From: Clostridia bacterium
GTDB lineage: Bacteria > Bacillota > Clostridia > Christensenellales > CAG-314
DNA length: 64,000 bases
NCBI GenBank assembly: GCA_028703495.1
Contig: JAQVMT010000010.1
Coordinates: 1 to 64,000, forward strand
Direction: 5' to 3'
The notes under the pieces are model-generated. The model was not told the origin of the DNA. It ran no database searches and was given only the letters and a program-made list of their open reading frames with translations. A program made the translations under genes and the position numbers. Each line of letters opens with the position of its first letter. Position 1 is the first letter of the stretch. Below, in pieces: positions 8,265 to 50,678 of this stretch.

Positions 8265-9317
8265 ATGAAATGCTTGGTTATCGATGGAACGCAGGATGAG
8301 TTAGTGGTGGAAGTGATAGCCGACGAACGGATATTCGGCGGCTTTTTCGCGGAGGACCGAAAGGAGCACAGCGAAATAATCGATGTTGCTATCGAAGGCG
8401 TTCTCAAAAGAGCCGAGCTGAACGTTGCGGATTTGGATTGCATAGCCTGTTGTGTGGGCGCGGGATCGTTTACGGGGATTCGCGTGGGAATCGCGACTGT
8501 GTTGGGCTTAAATTTTCCGTACGGTAAAAAGCTGATTTCCTTCAATTCCTTTGAGGTGCTTGCATATAATGATAAAGGATACCGCGACTGTGTGGTTTTC
8601 GGCAAGGGGGCGGTTTTTGCCGCCGAATATGACAAGCTTGACCAATTGAAGCCGCCCGAACAGGTGGATGAGGAATACGTCAACGGCTTGGAGAGCTACT
8701 CATGTTACGGCGAGGGCTTTGACAGGCTGTCGGCGATAGCTTCTGTGGTGCGCGACAAATACGATAAAGGTATGTTTTCTCAAAAGCTATCTCCTATGTA
8801 TCTTCAGCAATCGCAGGCGGAAAAGGAAAGGGAGAGGAAGCTTATGCGGGAGCGCGAACGCGAGCACGTTCTCTGTTCCATCGAGGAGGTTAACCTATCT
8901 GAGGACAACGCAGAGGAGCTTGCCGCGCTAGAACTCAAATGCTTCGGAAAGGAAGCTTGGAGCGAAAGCATGATTCGCGGTGAATTTATGTATTCAAACT
9001 CGGTCGGATTGGCGTACCGCATAGACGGTCGGGCGATTGCATACGGAATTATCGAAACGGTTTTGGATGAGGCGCATATAAGCACCTGCGGAGTAATTCC
9101 CGAATACAGGGGGTTGGGTGTCGGATCCATGCTTGTCGGGACGCTTATCGAAATGGCTCGCGACAACGGAGCCACAGCCGCTTTATTGGAAGTAAAAGCC
9201 GATAATTATGCCGCTATTACGCTCTATAAGAAGCTGGGCTTTCGAAGCTTCGGACTAAGGAAGCATTATTATCCCGACCGCAAGGATGCCTTGTTAATGC
9301 GATGCGCGCTAAAATGA
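8265..9317 (+). CDS. tsaB: TsaB-RimI fusion: t6A biosynthesis protein and GNAT acetyltransferase
   Basis: A two-domain protein of 350 residues. Residues 1 to about 190 are TsaB, an inactive ASKHA-fold partner of TsaD, with the family motif GAGSFTGIRVGIATVLG. A charged helical linker (KERERKLMREREREH) leads to a GNAT domain (about 205-350) like RimI, the S18 alanine N-acetyltransferase, with the acetyl-CoA motif VIPEYRGLGVGSMLVG and the C-terminal LYKKLGFRSFGLRKHYY. tsaB and rimI are normally adjacent genes, and fused forms occur in Clostridia. Start ATG 8265 is preceded by AAGGGG. The stop region (GCGCTAAAATGAGCTTG) is copied several times in the downstream gap. Confidence 0.9.
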   Translation: MKCLVIDGTQDELVVEVIADERIFGGFFAEDRKEHSEIIDVAIEGVLKRAELNVADLDCIACCVGAGSFTGIRVGIATVLGLNFPYGKKLISFNSFEVLAYNDKGYRDCVVFGKGAVFAAEYDKLDQLKPPEQVDEEYVNGLESYSCYGEGFDRLSAIASVVRDKYDKGMFSQKLSPMYLQQSQAEKERERKLMREREREHVLCSIEEVNLSEDNAEELAALELKCFGKEAWSESMIRGEFMYSNSVGLAYRIDGRAIAYGIIETVLDEAHISTCGVIPEYRGLGVGSMLVGTLIEMARDNGATAALLEVKADNYAAITLYKKLGFRSFGLRKHYYPDRKDALLMRCALK

Positions 9318-14509: not shown

Positions 14510-15397
14510 GTGAAATTTGAGCGTTTGCTGTTCGATATTGACGGAGTTAAGGTAAATAAGGACGTGAGCTTCGGCTCGATAACCACAATGGGAGTGGGAG
14601 GAAAGGCGGCTTACGTTGTCCAGCCTTGTTGCACGGAAGCTTTGGAAAAGGTTATGCGATTGTGCGATGCGCAGGGTGTGAGGAGGAAGGCTTTCGGAGC
14701 GGGTTCCAATATTATCGCACCCGACAATGGCTACGAGGGAGTAATAATCCTGTTCGGAAGGTTTATGTCGAATATCGAAGGCGACAAAAGCCGTGTTGTT
14801 TGTCAAAGCGGAGCCAAGCTCTCTATGCTTGCGAAGTATTCCGAGGTCTATTCCTTGGGCGGAGGGGAATTTTTGAGTTGCATTCCCGGGACCGTCGGCG
14901 GAGGAACGGTTTCCAACGCAGGATGCTTCGGCGGAGAGTGTTCGCAGATAATCCGACGTGTATTTTTGACCGACGGCAATCGAAGAACGGATATGACGGC
15001 TGAGGAGCTGGGGTTTGGATACCGATCCTGCGATTTGCCCGAAGGATACGTTATTTACGCTGTTGAGTACAGGTTCGAAAGGGCTTACTACGATGTCGGC
15101 GAACGGATACGGCGTATGAAGGAAGTCAAGGCAAAAACTCAACCTGTCAATACTCGTTGTGCGGGGAGCGTCTTTAAGAGGACGGGAGAATATATTCCCG
15201 CAAAGCGAATCGATGAATTGGGGCTTAAAGGACTTTGCGTCAACGGAGCCGCAGTCAGCTACAGGCATGCGGGCTTTATTGTCAACGACGGGACTGCGAC
15301 CCAAAAGGACATCGTCGAGCTTATCGAGCTGATAAGAGAGGAGGTCCGCAAGCAGGACGGAAGGGAATTGACGTTGGAGGTTGAATTGCTCGGATAA
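14510..15397 (+). CDS. murB: UDP-N-acetylenolpyruvoylglucosamine reductase
   Basis: A 295-residue FAD enzyme that reduces enolpyruvyl-UDP-GlcNAc to UDP-MurNAc. FAD-binding motifs GAGSNIIAPD and CIPGTVGGGTVSNAGCFGG are present. The proton-donor serine lies in CAGSVFKR and the C-terminal glutamate region is LEVELLG. It is the short type II MurB of Firmicutes. The start is GTG 14510 with AGGAG at 14499-14503. A PHP hydrolase gene follows within a few bases to tens of bases. Confidence 0.95.
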   Translation: MKFERLLFDIDGVKVNKDVSFGSITTMGVGGKAAYVVQPCCTEALEKVMRLCDAQGVRRKAFGAGSNIIAPDNGYEGVIILFGRFMSNIEGDKSRVVCQSGAKLSMLAKYSEVYSLGGGEFLSCIPGTVGGGTVSNAGCFGGECSQIIRRVFLTDGNRRTDMTAEELGFGYRSCDLPEGYVIYAVEYRFERAYYDVGERIRRMKEVKAKTQPVNTRCAGSVFKRTGEYIPAKRIDELGLKGLCVNGAAVSYRHAGFIVNDGTATQKDIVELIELIREEVRKQDGRELTLEVELLG

Positions 15398-15487
15398 ATT
15401 ACTATGATACGGAATGCATTGACAAGAGCGTTGAGTTTTGATCCGAGAGGTCTTATGTTTCACCCAAAAGATAAAGCGGGTAGATTT

Positions 15488-16240
15488 ATGGTAAAACAGG
15501 AAGAAATCGTTGCGGATTTGCATACGCATACGAGATATAGCCATGGAAAGGGTTTGATCTTCGATAATGTGGAGCAAGCAAAGAAGATCGGGCTTATGCA
15601 AATCGGAATAAGCGACCACGGAGTCAAGCATATGTTATTCGGCTTGAGAAAGTGGAAGGTCAAAGAAGCTCGGGATATTGTCGACAGATTAAACGGCGAC
15701 GGTATCGAGGTTCTTTTCGGCGTTGAGGCGAATATTCTCGACAGCAAAGGCAATTTGGACAGCGTCGGGAAGTATTCGGATTATTTCGATTATGTAATTG
15801 CGGGCTATCATAAGGCATCCTTGCCATCCAATCCGGCAGAATTCTTCAGGTGGAATATGTCCGCTATCTGTATGGGCAACAGCCGTAAGAATTCCGACAG
15901 GGTAAGACGGCATACAAAGGCTTATATCGAGGCAATTAAAAGCGGACGTGTCAATATTATCAGCCACCCCAATCTGGATATGAGCATCGATGTGATAGAG
16001 GTCGGCAAAGCCGCAAGGGATTACGGCGTGCTTATGGAGCTCAACGGAAAAAGAGTAATGATGTCGGATGACGACATTTGTGAGCTGGTAAACCTCAACG
16101 TCAATTTTATTTTAAGCTCCGATGCCCACAGCGTGCGCAGAGTTGGCGACTTTTCCGTCCCGCTCGCCGTCGTAAACAGATTGAATATACCCGCAAGACT
16201 TATCGCAAACACACATATTTTGAATTTCAAGAAACGCTAG
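15488..16240 (+). CDS. PHP-domain phosphoesterase
   Basis: A PHP metal-dependent hydrolase, YcdX-like. The first metal motif is DLHTHTRYSHG near the N-terminus, then ISDHG, GVEANI, HPNLD and the final SSDAH, giving the His/Asp ligand set. Substrate unknown; relatives hydrolyse phosphate esters. Three in-frame starts exist. 15404 has no SD; 15455 has GAGAGG but at a short distance; 15488 gives the family-typical short lead before DLHTHT and was chosen with moderate certainty. In many Firmicutes the genes after murB are rapZ, yvcK and whiA; here this gene and the Mrr-like gene stand in that place. Confidence 0.85.
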   Translation: MVKQEEIVADLHTHTRYSHGKGLIFDNVEQAKKIGLMQIGISDHGVKHMLFGLRKWKVKEARDIVDRLNGDGIEVLFGVEANILDSKGNLDSVGKYSDYFDYVIAGYHKASLPSNPAEFFRWNMSAICMGNSRKNSDRVRRHTKAYIEAIKSGRVNIISHPNLDMSIDVIEVGKAARDYGVLMELNGKRVMMSDDDICELVNLNVNFILSSDAHSVRRVGDFSVPLAVVNRLNIPARLIANTHILNFKKR

Positions 16241-16296: not shown

Positions 16297-16343
16297 ACGT
16301 TTTCGCATAGCTTAAATATGCGTCGAATCCAAATCGGAGTTGT

Positions 16344-19199
16344 ATGGTAAATAATAATGAGATAATTAATAATGAAACGGCTGCGCCCGAGGACGTGAAA
16401 AAGAACTCGAACGCAAAAGCCGAAAGCAAGCCAAAGCGCACAAGCAAGCCTCATAAGGGGGCAAATAACGAAGGCAAGGTCGTCGCGGCTTATGCGGAGC
16501 CGAAAACAGCCGCCACAAATACGTCCGACAAGAAACCGCCCGAGAAAGCGGAAGAAGTAGGTGCGGCTTATGCGGAGCTGAAAAAAACCGATAATACAGG
16601 AGAGACTGATGCGAAAGCAAAAAGCGCAAGGAAGAAGTCGGCAAAAAAGCCCCTTCCCGACAAGGCACCGCGCGATAAGGCATCGCCCGAAAAAGCCGTA
16701 ACATCGGATGTCGCCCTTTCTGCGGGTAGAGTGCCTGCAATCGAGAAGCCAAATACCGCAAAAGCGAATGTCGAAGTAAAGGAAGTAAATGCTTCGACCG
16801 CAAAAGTAACGGATGTAAAGGCAGAAGCCGTCGCAAAGTCGACTGCCGTAAACTCAAACGTTAAAGAAGTCAAAGCCTCGACAGCAAAAGTAACGGACGT
16901 AAAAGTAGAAGCCGTCGCAAAGTCGACTGACATAAAAAAGGAAGGCAATGAAACCCGAAATGAAGTTAAAGCCGTAACAGAAACCAAAGTAAATGAAGCC
17001 AAAACCCAAACTGCCGCAAAGAAGGCGACGGGCAAGAGGAAAAAGACTTCAGTAAATTCTGCGACAGCGGCAAATGGCGACAAAAACGTCGATGTCTCGA
17101 AATCCGATATAAAAACGGAAACTAAGGCGGGGGCGGAAACCAATGCCGCAAACAACGATAAAAAAACGCCCAATAAGCCGATCGACACTACCGAAAAGCT
17201 TGCAGAAGCTGCGACAGACAGCCAAGCTAAAAAAGAAGAAATAAAACCAAAACCTGCGAAAGAGGAAGCTGCTAAATCGAAAGAAATAAATACCGATTCA
17301 AAGTCGCGGAATTCGACAAATAAATACTTTAAGAAGAATACCGAAGCAGTAAAGTTGAACGTTGCCGAAGCCAAGACAGTTGAGCAAAACGCGAAGGCTA
17401 ACGCAGTAAACACGAAAAACGTTGCCGAAGCCAAGACAGTTGAGCAAAACGCGAAGGCTACCGTCGAAACCACGATAACAAGTGCGGAGGATGCAAATCG
17501 GCAGACCGATGCCCAAAAAATAGCAGGCGCGGAGAAACAAAGAGAAACCGAGCCAAGCAGAAGAAAAAAACAGGCAAAGAAAAACGGACGACAGGGAAAG
17601 CCCGAGCCGATAAAGACCGATTCGGATAAAGCCGATAAACTGATAGGCAACGCCAAGGCATCCGAACCGCAAGCATCGACAATCGATAAAAAGCCGACCT
17701 ATAAGCCTTTTTTTATACGCAAGACCCTTGCGCCGTTTCCGTTGGAAAGATCCAATTTTGCTTTACCAAAGCTTAAGCCGCAAAGGCTTGCGGTAAGGAA
17801 AAAGCCGATAATCAAGCCTATCGCGGTCGAAGCAAAGCCGATATCGGCAAAGCCTACGCCCGTTAAGCCGACTCAAACGGCAAATCAAAGAAACGCGCAA
17901 AAGACAGCCAAAAATCGTCCCGATCAAAACGCAAGCGGTGCGAGATCTGTTCTAACCCTCGACAAAAACGGCGATAAGTCGAATGCAAACGGCAACACAT
18001 CAAAACCCAATGCCCAAAACAGCGCAGGCAAAGGGACTTCCGATAACGCAAAGCCCAATGCCAATCAATCCAATGCAGGCAGGAAACCCAACGCCAACGA
18101 CAACGGAGATAAAGCCGAAGCCAAAGCTGCAAACTCTGCTGAAGGCAAACTCAATCCCAAAGCCAACGGGGCGAGCAAGCCGAATGACCGAGTTAACGGA
18201 AATGCTAACAAAACTGCGAAAGCCGACCTAAGCGGCGTTCAGGCTTCGAATGCAACCGATACCGATGACATTATCGGCAAAGCCGCTTTGCAGGGCGTTA
18301 CCATTCCTAGGTTTGCCGCCGCCGACGGAAGCCTTACAAAGCTGCAAATCAATCAATTACTGGTTGCGTTGTTTGACATAAGATCCAAGTGGGACAGGCG
18401 TGAGCTGTTGAATATTTGCGTTAAGCATTACGGCTTGACCGAGGAGCAACTAAAGGACAGGGGAAGCGAGAGTGTATCTACGCGATACAAAAGCCTTACG
18501 GGATCGCTCATCAACGAGAAGATCAATCTGGCACAGATTGCCGTTGACGAGGATGAGGCACTGGAAAAGCGCGCGGAATTCGTTTACGGTCAAGCCAAGT
18601 CCAAGTACGGCAAATATCCGAACACTCCGATCGGCAACCATTTCTTCCAAGCCGACAATATGTTCAAGAAGTACACCGCGGGTGAAATATCGCTCAAGGT
18701 CTATTTAAACAAGCTTGAGCGAATGTATATGCAGGCGATAAACATTTTGGGCAGTGAGTTTATGGAGGTTTTGGGCTTGATGCTTGTAAAGAGCAGATAC
18801 GGCAAGTGCGTTATCAAGGACGAGGTTACGGGCGGTCCCAACGATAACGGTATCGACGGCATAGTGCAAATCGAAGACCCCTTGGGAATTAAGGAAACCG
18901 TATTGATTCAGGCAAAAACGCGTAAAAAGATCGAAGCAAGCGTTACGGTAACCGAATTGCGCTGTTTTGTGGGTGTTATGAGCGCGTACGGTGCGACAAA
19001 GGGCGTTATGGTTACCAATGCCACCATTCACCAAGAGGGAAGAAGATTTGCCGCAAAGGTCAAAAACCTCTCGCTTATGGATGCCAAGAAGGTGTTTGCA
19101 TATGCCTTGGAGCACGAGGTAGGAATCGTTTACGAAAACAACGTTCCCAAGCTCGACGAAAAGCTGTTCATCAAAAACGATACGCGAATCGATGTGTAA
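16344..19199 (+). CDS. Mrr-type restriction endonuclease domain fused to a giant disordered Ala/Lys-rich N-terminus
   Basis: A 951-residue protein. Residues 1 to about 640 are low complexity (A, K, T, E, N), highly charged and without predicted fold, containing internal tandem repeats. Residues about 660-740 look like a winged-helix Mrr_N domain (QINQLLVALFDIRSKWDRRE). Residues about 800-951 are an Mrr-like PD-(D/E)xK nuclease: GSEFMEVLGLMLVK, then Asp838 in NGIDGI, Gln856 and Lys858 in IQAKTR, then the family helix FVGVMSAYGATKGVMVTNA. Mrr enzymes cleave modified or foreign DNA. The gene lies between a wall/PHP unit and whiA with no methyltransferase nearby, so a classic restriction role is uncertain. 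A DNA-tethering or nucleoid function of the basic tail is speculation. ATG 16344; weak SD. Confidence 0.8.
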   Translation: MVNNNEIINNETAAPEDVKKNSNAKAESKPKRTSKPHKGANNEGKVVAAYAEPKTAATNTSDKKPPEKAEEVGAAYAELKKTDNTGETDAKAKSARKKSAKKPLPDKAPRDKASPEKAVTSDVALSAGRVPAIEKPNTAKANVEVKEVNASTAKVTDVKAEAVAKSTAVNSNVKEVKASTAKVTDVKVEAVAKSTDIKKEGNETRNEVKAVTETKVNEAKTQTAAKKATGKRKKTSVNSATAANGDKNVDVSKSDIKTETKAGAETNAANNDKKTPNKPIDTTEKLAEAATDSQAKKEEIKPKPAKEEAAKSKEINTDSKSRNSTNKYFKKNTEAVKLNVAEAKTVEQNAKANAVNTKNVAEAKTVEQNAKATVETTITSAEDANRQTDAQKIAGAEKQRETEPSRRKKQAKKNGRQGKPEPIKTDSDKADKLIGNAKASEPQASTIDKKPTYKPFFIRKTLAPFPLERSNFALPKLKPQRLAVRKKPIIKPIAVEAKPISAKPTPVKPTQTANQRNAQKTAKNRPDQNASGARSVLTLDKNGDKSNANGNTSKPNAQNSAGKGTSDNAKPNANQSNAGRKPNANDNGDKAEAKAANSAEGKLNPKANGASKPNDRVNGNANKTAKADLSGVQASNATDTDDIIGKAALQGVTIPRFAAADGSLTKLQINQLLVALFDIRSKWDRRELLNICVKHYGLTEEQLKDRGSESVSTRYKSLTGSLINEKINLAQIAVDEDEALEKRAEFVYGQAKSKYGKYPNTPIGNHFFQADNMFKKYTAGEISLKVYLNKLERMYMQAINILGSEFMEVLGLMLVKSRYGKCVIKDEVTGGPNDNGIDGIVQIEDPLGIKETVLIQAKTRKKIEASVTVTELRCFVGVMSAYGATKGVMVTNATIHQEGRRFAAKVKNLSLMDAKKVFAYALEHEVGIVYENNVPKLDEKLFIKNDTRIDV
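16776..16929 (+). repeat. 84-bp in-frame tandem repeat in the Mrr fusion
   Basis: About 70 bp at 16776-16845 recurs at 16860-16929 (offset 84 bp = 28 codons), both encoding EV-ASTAKVTDVK-EAVAKST type sequence. Confidence 0.85.
17358..17460 (+). repeat. 60-bp in-frame tandem repeat in the Mrr fusion
   Basis: 43 bp at 17358-17400 are identical to 17418-17460 (period 60 bp = 20 codons), encoding NVAEAKTVEQNAKA twice. Confidence 0.95.
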
Positions 19200-19261: not shown

Positions 19262-20206
19262 ATGAAGCCGACCTTTTGTAAAATCATTAAAGAGGAAATA
19301 ATCAAAAACGAGAAGCCCAAGCCTTGTTGTGTGGACGCTTTTTTGGCTGCCGCAGTTTATTCTGTGGGTGCGATAAGCATCGAAAACGGAATTGCAACCA
19401 CCGAGCTTAGGCTCAATCCGCAGCTTGTCGCTTTTACAAAGGAATTACTGGACAAAAAGCGCATCGAATATCGGTTTATTGATGGCAAAAAGCCTTGCTT
19501 TGTGCTGGAAAACTGTGAAAAGCTGTTGAGAGAGCTTGAGGTTGCCGGCGACTATAACGGCTATATGGATTTGGTGGAAGGAATCGGCGAAAAATACAAA
19601 AACAATGAGTGCTGTGCGCGGAGTTTGCTCAAGGGGCTGTTCATTTACGGTGGCTCCGTGAAAATCCCGTACATAAGCGAGTTGGACAGCCAGGTCAAGG
19701 GCGGTTATCACCTTGAAATCGTGACAGGAAGTCTTTTTTTGGCTTTGGACGCACAGGAGCTTTTTGCCGAATTCGGATTCGATGCCAAAACGCGCAGCAG
19801 AAGCGGAACGCAATTGCTTTACTTTAAAAGCTCGGACGAAATAGGCGACATTTTGATCTTTTTCGGAGCTACGAGAGGAATGCTCGATTTGGAAAATTCT
19901 CGAATACTCAGATCTATGAGAGCTAATGTAAACCGCCAAAGCAATTGCGTAAATGCAAACATAACAAGAGCGGTGGAAGCCTCACAAGAACAGATTATCG
20001 CCATAAATTGCATAATTAAGGCAGGAAAGCTCAACGAATTTGACGAAACCAGCCAAAAATTAGCACAAACCAGGCTTGAAAATCCCGAGGCTACGCTTGA
20101 CGAGCTTGTGGAGCTGATGAATAAAGTGCTATCCAAAAGCGCGATTTACCACCGACTGAAACGGATCATTCAAAAAGTCGACGAAATCGATGCTTCTAAT
20201 ACCTAA
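19262..20206 (+). CDS. whiA: WhiA-family DNA-binding protein
   Basis: A 314-residue WhiA, a homing-endonuclease-derived (LAGLIDADG-like) N-terminal domain with a C-terminal HTH. It links cell division and chromosome segregation in Firmicutes. Recognisable segments: LLKGLFIYGGSV, the conserved NRQSNCVNANITRAVEAS, and the HTH stretch ATLDELVELMNKVLSKSAIYHRLKRI. The endonuclease catalytic acids are generally lost in this family. No good SD before ATG 19262, although the initial sequence fits the family. It lies 62 bp downstream of the Mrr fusion gene. Confidence 0.92.
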   Translation: MKPTFCKIIKEEIIKNEKPKPCCVDAFLAAAVYSVGAISIENGIATTELRLNPQLVAFTKELLDKKRIEYRFIDGKKPCFVLENCEKLLRELEVAGDYNGYMDLVEGIGEKYKNNECCARSLLKGLFIYGGSVKIPYISELDSQVKGGYHLEIVTGSLFLALDAQELFAEFGFDAKTRSRSGTQLLYFKSSDEIGDILIFFGATRGMLDLENSRILRSMRANVNRQSNCVNANITRAVEASQEQIIAINCIIKAGKLNEFDETSQKLAQTRLENPEATLDELVELMNKVLSKSAIYHRLKRIIQKVDEIDASNT

Positions 20207-20270
20207 TAAACGCAGAAAGCCTAGTTCTATAAAAACGGGCAAAAACCGTGCGACAAGGGCAAAGAAAGCA

Positions 20271-20426
20271 TAATTTACGATTGCGCTTAACACAAAAGCA
20301 ATTAATACTACGAACAAAGACAGCATGCGGTAAAAATGGAAGAAAACGTAATGAACGATTGCGCTTAACACAAAAGCAATCACTAGTACGAACAAAGGCA
20401 ACAAGCGGTAAAAATGGAAGAAAAAA
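20271..20426 (+). repeat. 78-bp direct repeat duplicating the start of the deacylase gene
   Basis: Block 20271-20348 recurs at 20349-20426 with about ten mismatches. The second copy contains the real start ATGGAAGAAAA (20414). The first contains the same start context at 20336 but reads only MEENVMNDCA before a stop, so it is a decoy start or tiny upstream ORF. Confidence 0.9.
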
Positions 20427-20924: not shown

Positions 20925-21040
20925 GCCGCAAAAAAGTTTCAGAGTATGCGCAAACGGTTTTACTAGTGGATAAACCGCAAAGTTGCTGCGTAAGCGCAAA
21001 CGGATTTACTTGCGGACAGACCGCGAAAGTAGGTTAAATA
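20925..21040 (+). repeat. Diverged ~49-bp repeats after the deacylase gene
   Basis: GCCGCAAAAAAGTTTC... at 20925 and ACCGCAAAGTTGCTGC... at 20974 begin parallel blocks, both containing GCGCAAACGG-TTTAC. A third partial copy ACCGCGAAAGT begins near 21020. Confidence 0.65.
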
Positions 21041-32622: not shown

Positions 32623-32850
32623 GAAAAGAACGCAAATACGGAATAGAATGCAAATAAAATTAGCTAAGTAAAGAGCATGAAGCATTACAAGGGAGAGAAC
32701 GCAATTAATCCATCAAGTATAGAGTGCAAAACGTTGGCTAAGTAAAGAACGCAAATAAGGTTGGCTAAGTAAAGAACGCAATAAAAGTTAGCTAAGTAAA
32801 GACCAAGAAGCATTACAAGAAAGAGAACGCGAAGGGCGTTAGAAAGGGAA
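32623..32850 (+). repeat. Tandem repeat array between the two permease genes
   Basis: The unit GCTAAGTAAAGAACGCAA, with a total period of 27 bp, starts at 32663, 32737, 32764 and 32791. A longer block AAGCATTACAAG-GAGAGAACGC occurs at 32680 and 32808 (offset 128 bp). Partial units precede it from about 32623. No ORF or known RNA. The region 32454-32622 shows nothing recognisable. Confidence 0.85.
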
Positions 32851-38463: not shown

Positions 38464-39342
38464 ATGAAAAAGCAAAATACCATAAGAATAAGATCGGATG
38501 CCAGGAACGGTTTATTATTCTGCCTGCCTTGGATTGTGGGCTTTTTGGCTTTGTCGCTTTATCCTATAATTATGAGCGTGGTTTACAGCTTCAGTGATGT
38601 TACGGTGGAAACCGACGGAATCAAAATTGAGCCCTATGGTTGGGGCAATTTCACCTACGCATTGGTAAACGACAGTGCGTTCGTTACGGCATTGAAGGAT
38701 TATGCGATCAAAATCGTGCTTTATGTGCCGGTAATTACCGTGGTTTCGCTGATTATCGCGCTTCTTTTAAACAGCAAGGTCAAGGGCAAGGGCTTTTTCA
38801 GGACTTTGTTTTTCCTGCCCGTAATTATCACGAGCGGACCCGTCATCTCCATATTTATCGATAAGGGAGTCGCCGAGTTTTCGGGCATAGCTACGCTTAT
38901 CGACTTCGAGGCATTATCGGCTACGGTGCCGCAGTTTTTGGTGAGTGCGTTGAAGTTTTTGACATCGGAATTTATCATGATTTTGTGGTTTTGCGGAATC
39001 CAAATTTTGGTATTTATGACAGGATTGAACAAGCTTGACAAGAGCATGTATGAGGCTGCGGCGATCGACGGCGCAAGCAAGTGGGAGGCTTTTTGGAAGC
39101 TGACCTTGCCGTCAATTAACCCGTTTATCGTGATTAACGTCGTCTTTACGATAATTATGCAGTCTATGTTCTCACTCAACCCCGTCATTTCCAAAATTCA
39201 GGCGGATATGAACGCCTCGGGTGAGGGCGCGGGCTACGGCTACTCCTCGGCGATGAGTTGGATTTACTTCTTGGTGCTTGTGGTGTTGCTGGTTGTGTTC
39301 GTGCTGATTTTCAAGAAGAAGGAAAGGAGGCGCGTAAGATGA
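38464..39342 (+). CDS. ABC sugar permease, MalF type (pair 2)
   Basis: A 292-residue permease with six helices, beginning LLFCLPWIVGFLALSLYPIIMS, and EAA loop EAAAIDGASKWEAFWKLTLP. Unlike the first MalF-type subunit it has no long N-terminal extension. The stop overlaps the next permease gene by four bases (ATGA), so the two are translationally coupled. ATG 38464 follows AGGATAAG. Confidence 0.92.
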   Translation: MKKQNTIRIRSDARNGLLFCLPWIVGFLALSLYPIIMSVVYSFSDVTVETDGIKIEPYGWGNFTYALVNDSAFVTALKDYAIKIVLYVPVITVVSLIIALLLNSKVKGKGFFRTLFFLPVIITSGPVISIFIDKGVAEFSGIATLIDFEALSATVPQFLVSALKFLTSEFIMILWFCGIQILVFMTGLNKLDKSMYEAAAIDGASKWEAFWKLTLPSINPFIVINVVFTIIMQSMFSLNPVISKIQADMNASGEGAGYGYSSAMSWIYFLVLVVLLVVFVLIFKKKERRRVR

Positions 39343-40616
39343 AAAAGAAACGCATAAATTCAGCACCGTCCTCCGATGATAAAATAGTACGTGATAAAGA
39401 TAAGTTGGAAAATGTTACCGCATTTCCCTCCGACACAAACTCCGAGAGTTTAGAAAACATCGTCGCATTACCCTCCGACATAGCTTCCGAAGAATTAGAA
39501 AGCAACTCGCAAAACACATCGTATGCGCCCAATGCCGAGTATATATTTTCGACGAATGCCGAGAAGTCTATATGGTTTGCCAAAAAGAAGGTTACGAAGC
39601 CTTCGGACGCACTCGAAATAGCCCCCGAAAACATGGAAAGCAACTCGCAAAACACATCGTATGCGCCGATACCTACGGATTTGGATACGAAAAAGCGTTT
39701 TGGGAAGGAGCGTATCAGGCTTGCCTTATTGGGCTACGGCGGAAAAAGAGGGCTAATAAGCACGGTTGTGATATACGCAATGCTGATTCTTTTCGGGTTC
39801 GTGTATGTTTATCCGTTGCTGTATATGTTGGCGTATTCGTTTATGGATGCATCCGATGTGGTAAATCCGTTGGTAAACTTCTTTCCGTCTAGCTTGTATT
39901 GGCAAAACTATTCCGAAGCGGCGCAGACCTTAAATTTTTGGAGCTCGTTGGGGCAGTCGATGTTGGTTGCGATCCTGCCCTCGATTGCACAGACGGTGGC
40001 GACAATGCTTGTTGCTTACGGACTTTCGAGGTTTAGATTCAGGGGAAGAAAGCTTATTATCGGGCTTGTCGTGCTTGCGTTCATTGTACCGCAGCAAATT
40101 ACGATGTTTCCGCAGCTGTTGATATTCAAAAAACTGCACATACTCGACAGCTTGCTAAGCTTTATTGTGCCGGCGGCTTTGGGACAGGGCATAAAAAGCA
40201 CGATATTCATACTGATTTTCTTCCAATTCTTCAACACTATCCCGAAATCGGTGGAGGAAGCGGCGAAAATCGACGGAGCGGGCGCGTTTAAGATATTCGT
40301 CAAAATCGGAATCCCCGCCGCCCTGCCTGCCATACTGCTTTGCTTTTTGTTGAGCGTGGTTTGGTACTACAACGAAACTGTATTGAGCGCGATCTACTTC
40401 GGAGGCGAATACACAACGCTCCCTCTGCAGCTAGAACGCTTTCAGGCTACCTACGAAAGCATTTTCGGTACGGCAAGCACGACTGGAAAATCGGCGAACG
40501 AAGCCATCTATATGGCGGGAACCTTGCTTTCTATACTGCCGCTTATCGTAATTTATGCCTTTACTCAACGGTTTTTCGTCGAGGGCATCGACAAAGCCGG
40601 AATTACCGGCGAATAG
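39339..40616 (+). CDS. ABC sugar permease, MalG type (pair 2), with long repetitive N-terminus
   Basis: A 425-residue permease. Residues 1 to about 130 are a polar, repetitive cytoplasmic extension in which NSQNTSYAP occurs twice and ALPSD/FPSD segments alternate. From about residue 136 come six helices starting TVVIYAMLILFGFVYVYPL. The EAA loop is EEAAKIDGAGAFKIFVKIGI. Start ATG 39339 has GGAGG upstream and overlaps the preceding stop; the frame from 39258 is inside the previous gene and is not used. MalG proteins are normally about 280-300 residues, so the tail is an addition, apparently grown by in-frame duplication. Confidence 0.9.
   Translation: MKKKRINSAPSSDDKIVRDKDKLENVTAFPSDTNSESLENIVALPSDIASEELESNSQNTSYAPNAEYIFSTNAEKSIWFAKKKVTKPSDALEIAPENMESNSQNTSYAPIPTDLDTKKRFGKERIRLALLGYGGKRGLISTVVIYAMLILFGFVYVYPLLYMLAYSFMDASDVVNPLVNFFPSSLYWQNYSEAAQTLNFWSSLGQSMLVAILPSIAQTVATMLVAYGLSRFRFRGRKLIIGLVVLAFIVPQQITMFPQLLIFKKLHILDSLLSFIVPAALGQGIKSTIFILIFFQFFNTIPKSVEEAAKIDGAGAFKIFVKIGIPAALPAILLCFLLSVVWYYNETVLSAIYFGGEYTTLPLQLERFQATYESIFGTASTTGKSANEAIYMAGTLLSILPLIVIYAFTQRFFVEGIDKAGITGE
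39498..39667 (+). repeat. In-frame direct repeat in the MalG-type permease N-terminus
   Basis: 32 bp at 39498-39529 are identical to 39636-39667 (offset 138 bp = 46 codons). A shorter, diverged period occurs around 39410-39500. Confidence 0.9.
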
Positions 40617-42226: not shown

Positions 42227-42247
42227 GCTCGGTTTTACCGTTTGAAG

Positions 42248-42476
42248 CGACAGTTACAGATGAAAACATAGAAAGAAAGCGACATTTCCCGAAGTTAAAC
42301 AGAGAACTGAAGTGACAGTCACAGAAGTTAAACAGAGAACGGAAGTGACAGTTACCGAAGTTAAACAGAGAACGGAAGTGACAGTTACAGAAGTTAATCA
42401 GAGAACGAAAGTGACAGTTACCGAAGGAGTGCAAAAAACCGAAGGAGTGCAAAAAACCGAAGGCGTAGAAAAAATG
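42248..42476 (+). repeat. 33-bp tandem array followed by an 18-bp array spanning the second GH144 start
   Basis: GAAGTTAAACAGAGAAC starts at 42291, 42324, 42357 and (diverged) 42390, an exact 33-bp period, with decayed units upstream from 42248. From 42423 an 18-bp unit GAAGGAGTGCAAAAAACC follows, at 42423, 42441 and 42459. The third copy, GAAGGCGTAGAAAAAATG, ends with the ATG of the next gene, so the Shine-Dalgarno-like GAAGGAG is present in triplicate. Confidence 0.92.
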
Positions 42477-43685
42477 GAAGTAAAGGATAAAGCAAAACCG
42501 ATGTGTTGCGAGCAGTATTATAATGAGCTTAAAGGATGCGTGGATTTTTTCGTCAATGAGTGCGAAAGGAGTGAGAGCGCGTTCGGGCTTATGCGCGACA
42601 GGTATCCATCCAACGGGCATATTTGTTCGATTGCTGCGACGGGATTCGGGCTGTGTGCCTTCGTTGTGGGAGCGGAATTCGGCTACATCGACAGAGGTGT
42701 TGCCGAGGAATGCGCGGCGGAAACCCTTAAAACGCTTATAAGCTTGGAGCGCGGCGACGGGTTTTTCTACCACTTTTACCACACAAAGAGCAAGGAAAGG
42801 CTTTTTAAGTGCGAATTGAGTACGATCGACACGGCTTTGCTGATTGCGGGTGCGTTGACCGCGGGTGAATACTTCGGCGGAAAATGCAAGGAAACGGCAC
42901 AAAAACTCTACGACGAGGTTAGATGGAACGTCTTTTGCGATGAGGAGCGGCTTTGGCTTAGAATGAGCCGCTACGACAACGGCTTTTCGGGGCAGTGGGA
43001 CGTCTATGGAGAACAGCTTTTGCTCTACGTATTGGGAGCGGCAAGCATGAATCCGATCGATGAGAAGTATTACTACGCGTTCAAGCGGTTGAAAGGCTGT
43101 TACGGCGGTTATGAGTTTTTTTATAGCTGGTTCGGCTCGCTGTTTACGCATCAATATTCGCACGCATTTGTAGATTTTCGTGGAATTGTAGACAAAAACG
43201 GCACCGATTGGTTCAAAAACTCGGTGATTGCGACACTTGCAAACAGGCAGTTTTGCCTCGATAACGCGAAAACATACAGAGGATTTTCGCAAAACAGTTG
43301 GGGACTGACCGCTTGCGACGATATAAACGGCTATCAAGGACGTATGGGAGCCGAGCCGAGCGGCAACAACAACATCGAAAACGTAGTTGACGGTACAATT
43401 CCGCCCTCGGGCGCGTTGAGTTCAATGTGCTTTACACCGTCTTTGAGCCTTGCCGCATTACAACACTACTACTCAATCGAGGGGTTGACGGGCAAATACG
43501 GACTCTATGAGGCGTTCAACGCCGATAAGCGTTGGATTGGGAAAGAATACATCGGAATCGACAAGGGCATCGTTATGGTGATGATGGCGAATATGCTGCG
43601 CGGCACTGTTTGGAACAGCTTTATGCGCTCAAAAATCGTGATAAAGGGCTTGGCTAATTTAGGTTTTACAAGGGCAAAAGTCTGA
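42474..43685 (+). CDS. GH144-family protein without signal peptide (cytoplasmic paralogue)
   Basis: A 403-residue paralogue of the preceding GH144, retaining CVDFFVNECERSESAFGLMRDR, IAATGFGLCAFVVGAEFGYI, CELSTIDTALLIAGAL, SWFGSLFTHQYSHAFVDFRG and SWGLTACDDINGYQG. No signal peptide or lipobox is present, so it should act inside the cell, perhaps trimming imported oligosaccharides before phosphorolysis by the GH94 enzyme. The start was set at ATG 42474 with GAAGG upstream. The open frame extends back to GTG 42312 through the 33-bp repeats (TEVTVTEVKQR), and a translated repeat extension cannot be excluded. Homology starts at about residue 10 of the chosen protein. Confidence 0.82.
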   Translation: MEVKDKAKPMCCEQYYNELKGCVDFFVNECERSESAFGLMRDRYPSNGHICSIAATGFGLCAFVVGAEFGYIDRGVAEECAAETLKTLISLERGDGFFYHFYHTKSKERLFKCELSTIDTALLIAGALTAGEYFGGKCKETAQKLYDEVRWNVFCDEERLWLRMSRYDNGFSGQWDVYGEQLLLYVLGAASMNPIDEKYYYAFKRLKGCYGGYEFFYSWFGSLFTHQYSHAFVDFRGIVDKNGTDWFKNSVIATLANRQFCLDNAKTYRGFSQNSWGLTACDDINGYQGRMGAEPSGNNNIENVVDGTIPPSGALSSMCFTPSLSLAALQHYYSIEGLTGKYGLYEAFNADKRWIGKEYIGIDKGIVMVMMANMLRGTVWNSFMRSKIVIKGLANLGFTRAKV

Positions 43686-50200: not shown

Positions 50201-50334
50201 TAGCCCTTTACCTTGACGGAATAAAGTCGGATACGCTTGCCGATATAATTATCGATGGTGCAAAGGATAACGCCTACACCAAGGAATGGGAGCTTAACGG
50301 AGAAAACGCCGTCATTTCCGTGGTAAAGAAATAA
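47203..50334 (+). CDS. ileS: Isoleucyl-tRNA synthetase (IleS2-like)
   Basis: A 1043-residue class I synthetase charging tRNA(Ile). The HIGH motif is at residues 57-60 (NGKPHIGH), the editing domain includes LAWTTTPWTLPSN, and the KMSKS loop is KMSKHKGN near 592-596. The segments GWDTHGLPVEIEVEKTL and LDCWYDSGSMPFAQHHYP, with length near 1040, resemble the archaeal/eukaryotic-like IleS2 type, which tends to be less sensitive to mupirocin; this is knowledge of the family, not tested. ATG 47203 has CGGAGG upstream. The 3' end plus about 60 bp beyond it is duplicated downstream. Confidence 0.93.
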   Translation: MYKKVSANLNFVSRELETIDFWKKNKVFEKTCTVNASSPDKVFTFFDGPPTANGKPHIGHVLTRAMKDVIPRYKIMKGFNVLRKAGWDTHGLPVEIEVEKTLHLDGKQDIEKYGIEPFIKQCKQSVWKYKGEWERMSERVGYWVDMEDPYITYDNRYIESVWWSLKKVFEKGLLYQGYKIVPYCPRCGTALSSHEVAQGYKDVKEKSIFVKFRLVGQSDVYFLAWTTTPWTLPSNVALCMNADEDYTKIKVKEEYYILADALVSSLFEEGSYTKIDTKKGSEYEYTPYERLFDCYKGGDKAFYITNDSYVTLTDGTGIVHIAPAFGEDDANVGREYKLPFVQAVDTAGKFTADAAELVGMFCKDADPKIIGMLADKGLLFKQKMYEHSYPFCWRCDSPLLYYARKSWFIKMTAVKDEVLKANNSVNWIPESIGTGRMGNFIENLIDWGISRERYWGTPLPIWICDKCKKIHVVGSKEELCALSGCDKDIELHRPYIDEISWKCECGGTMVRTPEVLDCWYDSGSMPFAQHHYPFENKEVFERNFPAQYISEAVDQTRGWFYTLLSISTLLFDKSPFENCIVLGHVNDKDGIKMSKHKGNVVDPWSALDKQGADAVRWYFYTTSNPWLPSRFSLDAVSEGQRRFMGTLWNTYAFFVLYADIDKFNPSAYDMTNREYSVMDKWILSKLNTLVKRVDGSLAAYDITDAARSIEEFTDILSNWYVRRSRERYWGKDMDEDKICAYSTLYTVLVTLSKLCAPFVPFVSEQIYGNLVTPFFKDAPISVHLCRFPECNEKFIDAELERTMDNLLDVVVLGRSARNVSNIKNRQPLARMYVATHNFGEFDEEFTEIIKNELNVKEVCFVSDSTDFISYELKPQLKTLGPKYGKMLNAIRQHLSVCNADEVVKIVKSGKKYEFIVDQTEIALDLDDLLISTVQKEGYVAASDKGISVVLDANVTEELFYEGIMREFVSKVQTMRKEADFSVTDHIEVFFQGTAKVEKTVALYLDGIKSDTLADIIIDGAKDNAYTKEWELNGENAVISVVKK

Positions 50335-50478
50335 CGTTAGTTATGGCGCAAGCCTGTGCGTTTATACAATAATGACAGATGTGATACATTGTATCCGTTT
50401 CGTGGTAAAGAAATAACGCGATTTTGGCGCAAAGCTATGCGCTTAAATAAATATGACAGATATGGCACGTCGTATCCG
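50319..50478 (+). repeat. Tandem duplication covering the ileS stop and 3' flank
   Basis: Unit 50319-50397 (CGTGGTAAAGAAATAACG...GTATCCG) recurs at 50401-50478, offset 82 bp, about 80% identical with one indel. Here the copy extends well past the stop codon into the flank. Confidence 0.9.
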
Positions 50479-50678
50479 TCACGTGCTCTTTATGGCTGTT
50501 ATTGCCATGCCCCACTACGATGCAGTCGTGCGTAAAATATTTTTTTACGCGCTTTTATTGCGGCATTGCCGCTAATAGAAAAGATTGTCCTTATCCCTTT
50601 GTTGTAATAAAGGGTAACGGGTAGTTTTTGCTTGCATAAATTCTATTGACATAAGTCAATTATTACTTGGAGGAAAAA
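50479..50678. other. Leader of the aminopeptidase gene with hairpins and a palindrome
   Basis: Small stems such as GCGGC-ATT-GCCGC (near 50561-50573) are visible. TTGAC-ATAA-GTCAA lies at 50646-50659, the same arrangement as TTGAC-AAGG-GTCAA at 23996. No matching -10 box lies at the right distance, so its role is open. Confidence 0.4.

Follow-up and report, generated by a model that had tools for sequence, protein, structure and literature searches.

The gene at positions 16344-19199 of the window, a 64,000-nt stretch of the genome of a Clostridia bacterium (contig JAQVMT010000010.1, positions 1 to 64,000), encodes a predicted endonuclease in which a 640-residue tail, predicted to be disordered, precedes a winged helix and an Mrr-type PD-QxK nuclease domain. 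Restriction nucleases are normally patchy in distribution, mobile and compact; this one is of an ordinary catalytic kind but of unusual architecture. On balance we consider it probable that the protein is a solitary restriction-type endonuclease which was added between the genes for a PHP-domain phosphoesterase and WhiA, which is probably modification-dependent, and whose tail would govern its localisation or assembly. The features of the locus are summarised in Table 1.

Table 1. Features of the nuclease gene and its flanks in the window
Feature	Position	Strand	Basis
murB, flank, conserved synteny	14510..15397	+	domain search, synteny
PHP-domain phosphoesterase, flank, adjoins whiA in 12/20 relatives	15404..16240	+	domain search, synteny
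GGAG, ribosome-binding-site-like, 4 nt 5' of ATG	16336..16339	+	sequence
CDS, 951 aa, disordered tail-winged helix-Mrr (PD-QxK) nuclease	16344..19199	+	ATG start
Tail, residues 1-640, Lys/Ala/Asn/Thr/Glu-rich polyampholyte, predicted disordered	16344..18263	+	composition, frame test
84-nt in-frame tandem duplication, 1.9 copies, 86%	16777..16936	+	repeat search
60-nt in-frame tandem duplication, 2.0 copies, 91%	17358..17475	+	repeat search
Residues 441-520, where the tail is most basic and least polar; candidate interaction segment	17664..17903	+	composition
Winged-helix domain, residues ~666-742	18339..18569	+	predicted fold; remote Mrr_N similarity
Helical linker, residues ~762-802, ahead of nuclease	18627..18749	+	predicted structure
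Mrr catalytic domain PF04471, residues 803-917	18750..19094	+	Pfam
Asp838, catalytic	18855..18857	+	invariant in homolog alignments
Gln856, catalytic (QxK)	18909..18911	+	invariant in homolog alignments
Lys858, catalytic (QxK)	18915..18917	+	at least 90% of aligned homologs
whiA, flank	19262..20206	+	domain search, synteny

Domains and active site of the nuclease

A preliminary description of this DNA had placed an Mrr catalytic domain at the C-terminus, and a Pfam search bore this out: Mrr_cat (PF04471) matched the product with an E-value of 2e-17 and 63.8 bits against a curated cut-off of 21, and a weaker second match was to NA-iREase1. The PADLOC type IV mREase model also matched the product (E 4e-15). 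The three catalytic residues that had been named lie exactly at the positions given for them and are conserved as listed in Table 1, the position of Lys858 being occupied by Arg in genomes G109 and G204. The winged helix expected ahead of the nuclease was recovered as well. The AlphaFold model of the C-terminal 313 residues, based on 21 aligned sequences, has a pLDDT of 90 (78 in an earlier model of the C-terminal part based on 4 sequences) and consists of a winged helix, itself with a pLDDT of about 90, a helical linker and a nuclease fold. For both models the top solved structures found by Foldseek were MspJI and AspBHI (E 3e-6 to 4e-5, probability 1.00), and the best-aligned chains span 164-175 columns, which corresponds roughly to the length of the nuclease part.

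The winged helix and the tail had no match in Pfam, and the Mrr_N model (PF14338) gave no HMM match at this gene. Comparison of the winged helix with Mrr_N by hhalign gave a probability of 82% over 81 columns, a remote similarity. Its assignment to HARE-HTH was rejected, PF05066 being without a match in the source genome up to E 1, and a PDB sequence search with the C-terminal 313 residues matched nothing. An internal start that would yield a tail-less protein was also rejected, since only TTG codons (residues 649, 676, 689 and 698) were available and none had a convincing ribosome-binding site. A search for a separate promoter of the gene gave a single weak hit close to whiA, and chance alone would have produced more. 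In the nuclease part 23 of the 30 Lys codons are AAG (p 0.009 against the neighbours) and the tail resembles the neighbours; this is a weak signal, one among several tests, and we did not accept that the nuclease part has foreign codon usage.

Winged-helix endonucleases have been reported to read adenine methylation (PMC11037411), and Mrr is a type IV enzyme made up of a winged helix and a PD-QxK domain whose oligomeric state switches its activity (PMC12707154). Because these functions are known for Mrr and the winged-helix methylation readers, the winged helix of the window enzyme would by analogy recognise DNA, and its Mrr domain would cut it by PD-QxK chemistry. EcoKMrr, a type IV enzyme, likewise has an N-terminal winged helix and an Mrr PD-QxK domain and is encoded by a single gene without a methyltransferase of its own, as the window enzyme appears to be, but EcoKMrr is a compact two-domain enzyme with no disordered tail, and the window winged helix escapes its PF14338 profile. 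The MspJI and AspBHI family, which supplies the best solved-structure matches, has the Mrr-type catalytic domain in common with the window protein, whereas its SRA-like 5mC reader is replaced there by the winged helix. FcyTI and Psp4BI are fusions of a winged helix and a nuclease that are rarely found near a methyltransferase, like the window enzyme; their winged helix reads Gm6ATC (PMC11037411).

Genomic context and the methyltransferase partner of relatives

The gene lies directly before whiA, as had been described. Twenty genomes of the same family were sampled; their gene order is murB-PHP-whiA (12) or murB-whiA (8), with no nuclease in between, and the SBP gene upstream is conserved too, apart from two short contigs that do not extend to it; in the window the distance from the PHP gene to whiA is 3.0 kb. 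Since the murB-(PHP)-whiA order is intact without the nuclease in all 20 relatives, we take the gene for an addition found in this genome alone within the family genomes compared, namely those with the 20 syntenic loci and 40 other family genomes, none of them from another species of its genus (g1). Among the 40, the nuclease part matched only G033, weakly (E 1e-11) and at a different locus. The contrast drawn earlier with rapZ and yvcK as the usual genes at this place does not apply, because in this family either the PHP gene or nothing sits between murB and whiA. No flanking repeats of 8 nt or more were found as insertion scars. An origin from a prophage or plasmid was rejected, as the matches in phage and plasmid collections were all distant (23-37% identity) and a separate search of viral contigs gave two, likewise distant, that cover the catalytic end.

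Among the 14 neighbours tested (8.3-28.3 kb) there is no defence gene, in agreement with the preliminary description, and no methyltransferase linked to the nuclease. Elsewhere in the source genome, contig C44 carries a defence cluster (L050:3114-10862) with two C5 methyltransferases, an AAA protein, McrC and a canonical Mrr composed of Mrr_N and Mrr_cat; the window gene is thus an additional Mrr-type gene, and its relationship to this one is distant.

In a search of the whole order, homologs at E<=1e-12 were found in 38 of the 396 genomes. In the tree, the window gene groups on a long branch with genera g34 and g72 and genomes G390 and G106 (support 97/98), and none of these clade mates has a long disordered region. 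In all three g34 genomes (G063, G127 and G778) the nuclease gene adjoins a gene for an Eco57I-type adenine methyltransferase, overlapping its end by 11 nt in G063 and G127 (L128:5720-8837 and L043:7714-10813) and lying just behind it in G778. By their arrangement, these two genes look like a restriction-modification pair with an Mrr-type nuclease. The g34 enzymes are close relatives of the window enzyme (about 35-40% identity) but are tail-less and paired with a methyltransferase, whereas the window gene is neither.

These observations raise the alternative that the window gene is the orphaned restriction half of a former pair which has lost its Eco57I-like methyltransferase and whose nuclease is restrained by the tail or another factor. 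The pairing in three of three g34 genomes, the membership of g34 in the clade of the window gene and the absence of any homolog of the g34 partner from a search of the source genome are what this alternative would lead one to expect. We nevertheless regard it as unlikely: the partner was not found in the other genera tested either (g72, g69, g124 and more), which makes a solitary nuclease the common state, and an intact active site would be lethal unless regulated. As the source genome has no methyltransferase of the kind used by the nearest relatives, a solitary enzyme would most likely spare host DNA either by needing a modification or DNA state that is absent from the host, in the manner of type IV enzymes, or by being held inactive. 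Of the roles put forward in the preliminary description, that of a solitary nuclease is the better one. That description had also looked to close relatives for absence of the fusion together with loss of the catalytic residues; the fusion is indeed absent from relatives, but the catalytic residues are not lost and are kept in the homologs.

Composition and origin of the tail

The N-terminal Ala/Lys/Glu-rich disordered region described earlier was confirmed over residues 1-640. It contains 17% Lys, 16% Ala, 10% Asn, 9% Thr and 7.5% Glu, is 33% charged and 13% hydrophobic with 9 aromatic residues, and has a net charge of +48 (+0.075 per residue); within it, residues 441-520 have a net charge of +0.175 per residue and 16% Pro. 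Its 640 codons contain no stop. The other two forward frames have 33 and 41, and 2000 simulated sequences of equal dinucleotide content average 25, with never fewer than 11; because of this difference we concluded that the frame of the tail is kept open by selection. An ORF of 362 aa on the minus strand over the tail (16568-17656) was taken as a by-product of composition.

The repeat copies were also compared with each other. In the compared part of the 84-nt repeat there are 7 synonymous and 4 non-synonymous differences (pS 0.37, pN 0.07; binomial p 0.009), and in the 60-nt repeat, with 1 synonymous and 5 non-synonymous differences, the synonymous excess is absent; selective constraint on the tail is thus suggested, not proven, by these counts. 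The preliminary description had the tail still growing by in-frame repeats. The 84-nt and 60-nt units are indeed in frame, but this wording goes too far: identity between copies is only 80-91%, and duplications of this sort occur throughout the genome.

This last point could be seen from the density of tandem arrays, which is 9.5 per 100 kb in the source genome (305 kb) and 0.66 in family relatives (301 kb), a density about 14 times that of the relatives per base, with most of the arrays outside called ORFs. Statements on the whole source genome are based on searches together with about 305 kb of sampled stretches. The in-frame repeats of the tail reflect this genome-wide habit of tandem duplication. 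Other arrays in the window, mostly of 2-3 copies, lie at 20262-20424, 20933-21030, 32728-32802, 42244-42426 and 50319-50479. The gene at 42312-43685 encodes a glycoamylase-family protein (PF10091) whose N-terminus consists of 33-nt in-frame repeats (VTVTEVKQRTE), and that at 39258-40616 a permease-like protein with a low-complexity N-terminal extension of about 130 residues and a repeated SNSQNTSYAP motif. At 8265-9317 there is, by eye, an apparent fusion of a TsaB-like domain to a RimI-like acetyltransferase, with a charged QAEKERERKLMRERERE linker.

The tail might accordingly be a near-neutral by-product, the N-terminus of an acquired nuclease having been lengthened by duplication and drift, which would be compatible with a working nuclease. 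We judge this to be rather unlikely, though it would fit a genome with so many tandem arrays and with a second N-terminal repeat array in the window gene at 42312. Duplication alone would not explain the absence of stops from 640 codons or the repeated evolution of a similar composition within this enzyme family. Moreover, only one other of the 226 ORFs sampled from the source genome (~305 kb) has a disordered run of at least 60 residues, and this one resembles by eye the coiled coil of RNase Y, so that no other stretch in the 305 kb is comparably disordered.

For the solitary endonuclease that we prefer, the tail would be a later, lineage-specific polyampholyte that was built through the tandem-duplication habit and whose frame was maintained. 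It would most likely tune solubility, self-association or DNA dwell time rather than specificity, and we conjecture that it serves as a tether or as an aid to solubility or self-association. Like the disordered regions of the cousins described below, with a net charge of 0.01-0.10 per residue, the tail is a near-neutral polyampholyte, and this shared composition speaks against the tail being a simple DNA clamp of the histone-like type. The AT-hook core RGR is absent from residues 1-640. Rho of Bacteroides thetaiotaomicron is also a nucleic-acid enzyme with a lineage-specific disordered insert (PMC13269538, PMC10284900), but it is an unrelated enzyme, and phase separation, shown for Rho, would be conjecture for the window protein.

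Repeated gain of disorder and the recO-linked cousins

On the tree of the nuclease family, no fewer than four changes are needed to account for the disordered stretches of 90 or more residues. A single clade of all the sequences with such a stretch was rejected (p-AU 1e-4, to be read with the caveat of long branches), and the change in genus g69 has independent support from synteny: the nuclease of G262 has a disordered N-terminus of 110 residues, and those of G109 and G204 at the same locus do not (L124:9268-10623 against L130:7610-8635 and L129:974-1999), a tail having been either gained or lost inside this genus. The disordered stretches thus appear to have arisen independently about four times. 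In genus g44 (L123:8613-10022 and L134:7939-9147) the layout is, by eye, winged helix-disordered-winged helix-Mrr.

In genus g124 a protein with the layout winged helix-disordered-Mrr, mostly of 450-860 aa, is present in 55 of 57 species and in all 12 high-quality genomes (example loci L120:8491-9984, L119:6304-8298 and L181:7678-10164). The gene recO lies directly upstream in all 15 loci that the contig reaches (14 from g124 and 1 from its sister genus g371), and era precedes recO in all 14 loci extending that far, the order being yqfD-phoH-HD protein-ybeY-era-recO-[nuclease]-PPDK-like gene. Of the 17 cousin proteins read, one of which ends at a contig edge, 10 have AT-hook-like motifs such as KKRGRKP in up to 5 copies, and 10 have the motif DMSFLFG/DMTLLFG. 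The g124 protein resembles the window protein in its winged helix, its long Lys/Glu/Ala/Pro disordered region and an Mrr domain with D, Q and K intact (in the three aligned); it differs in that the disordered region lies between winged helix and nuclease and carries AT-hook-like motifs, and in that the gene is core and syntenic.

The cousins suggest a further explanation for the window gene, namely that it encodes a domesticated chromosome-associated nuclease acting in repair, recombination or the nucleoid, with the tail tethering it to DNA or protein or driving condensates. The g124 gene after recO, with its frequent AT-hook-like and recurring DMSFLFG motifs, and the roughly fourfold origin of long disordered stretches would fit such a role. 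For the window gene we find it quite improbable: this copy is absent from all the sampled family relatives, its tail comes first in the domain order, has a weak net charge and contains no AT-hook. For the same reasons, including its absence from the 20 syntenic loci, the conserved housekeeping or nucleoid role proposed earlier is not supported here. It is a serious hypothesis for g124, whose recO-linked nuclease is possibly a domesticated one. A broader version, which we hold to be unlikely, is that winged helix-Mrr nucleases repeatedly left the restriction arms race and gained long disordered polyampholyte regions for their organisation on the host chromosome, the core gene after recO in g124 being the end state and the window gene an independent instance.

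Against our own preferred reading, that of a solitary restriction-type endonuclease, stands the fact that two further genera of the order have homologs as core genes, which is unusual for restriction enzymes; one of them is g72, where all 10 genomes examined have the homolog, which adjoins degV at the locus read. A literature search of limited scope found no description of repeated disorder gain or of a recO-linked core nuclease, and the apparently domesticated g124 cousins are a more interesting lead than the window gene itself. A nuclease family that gains disorder and has a syntenic core form behind recO offers a way to ask how disorder affects a potentially lethal nuclease and whether domestication can turn such enzymes to chromosome maintenance.
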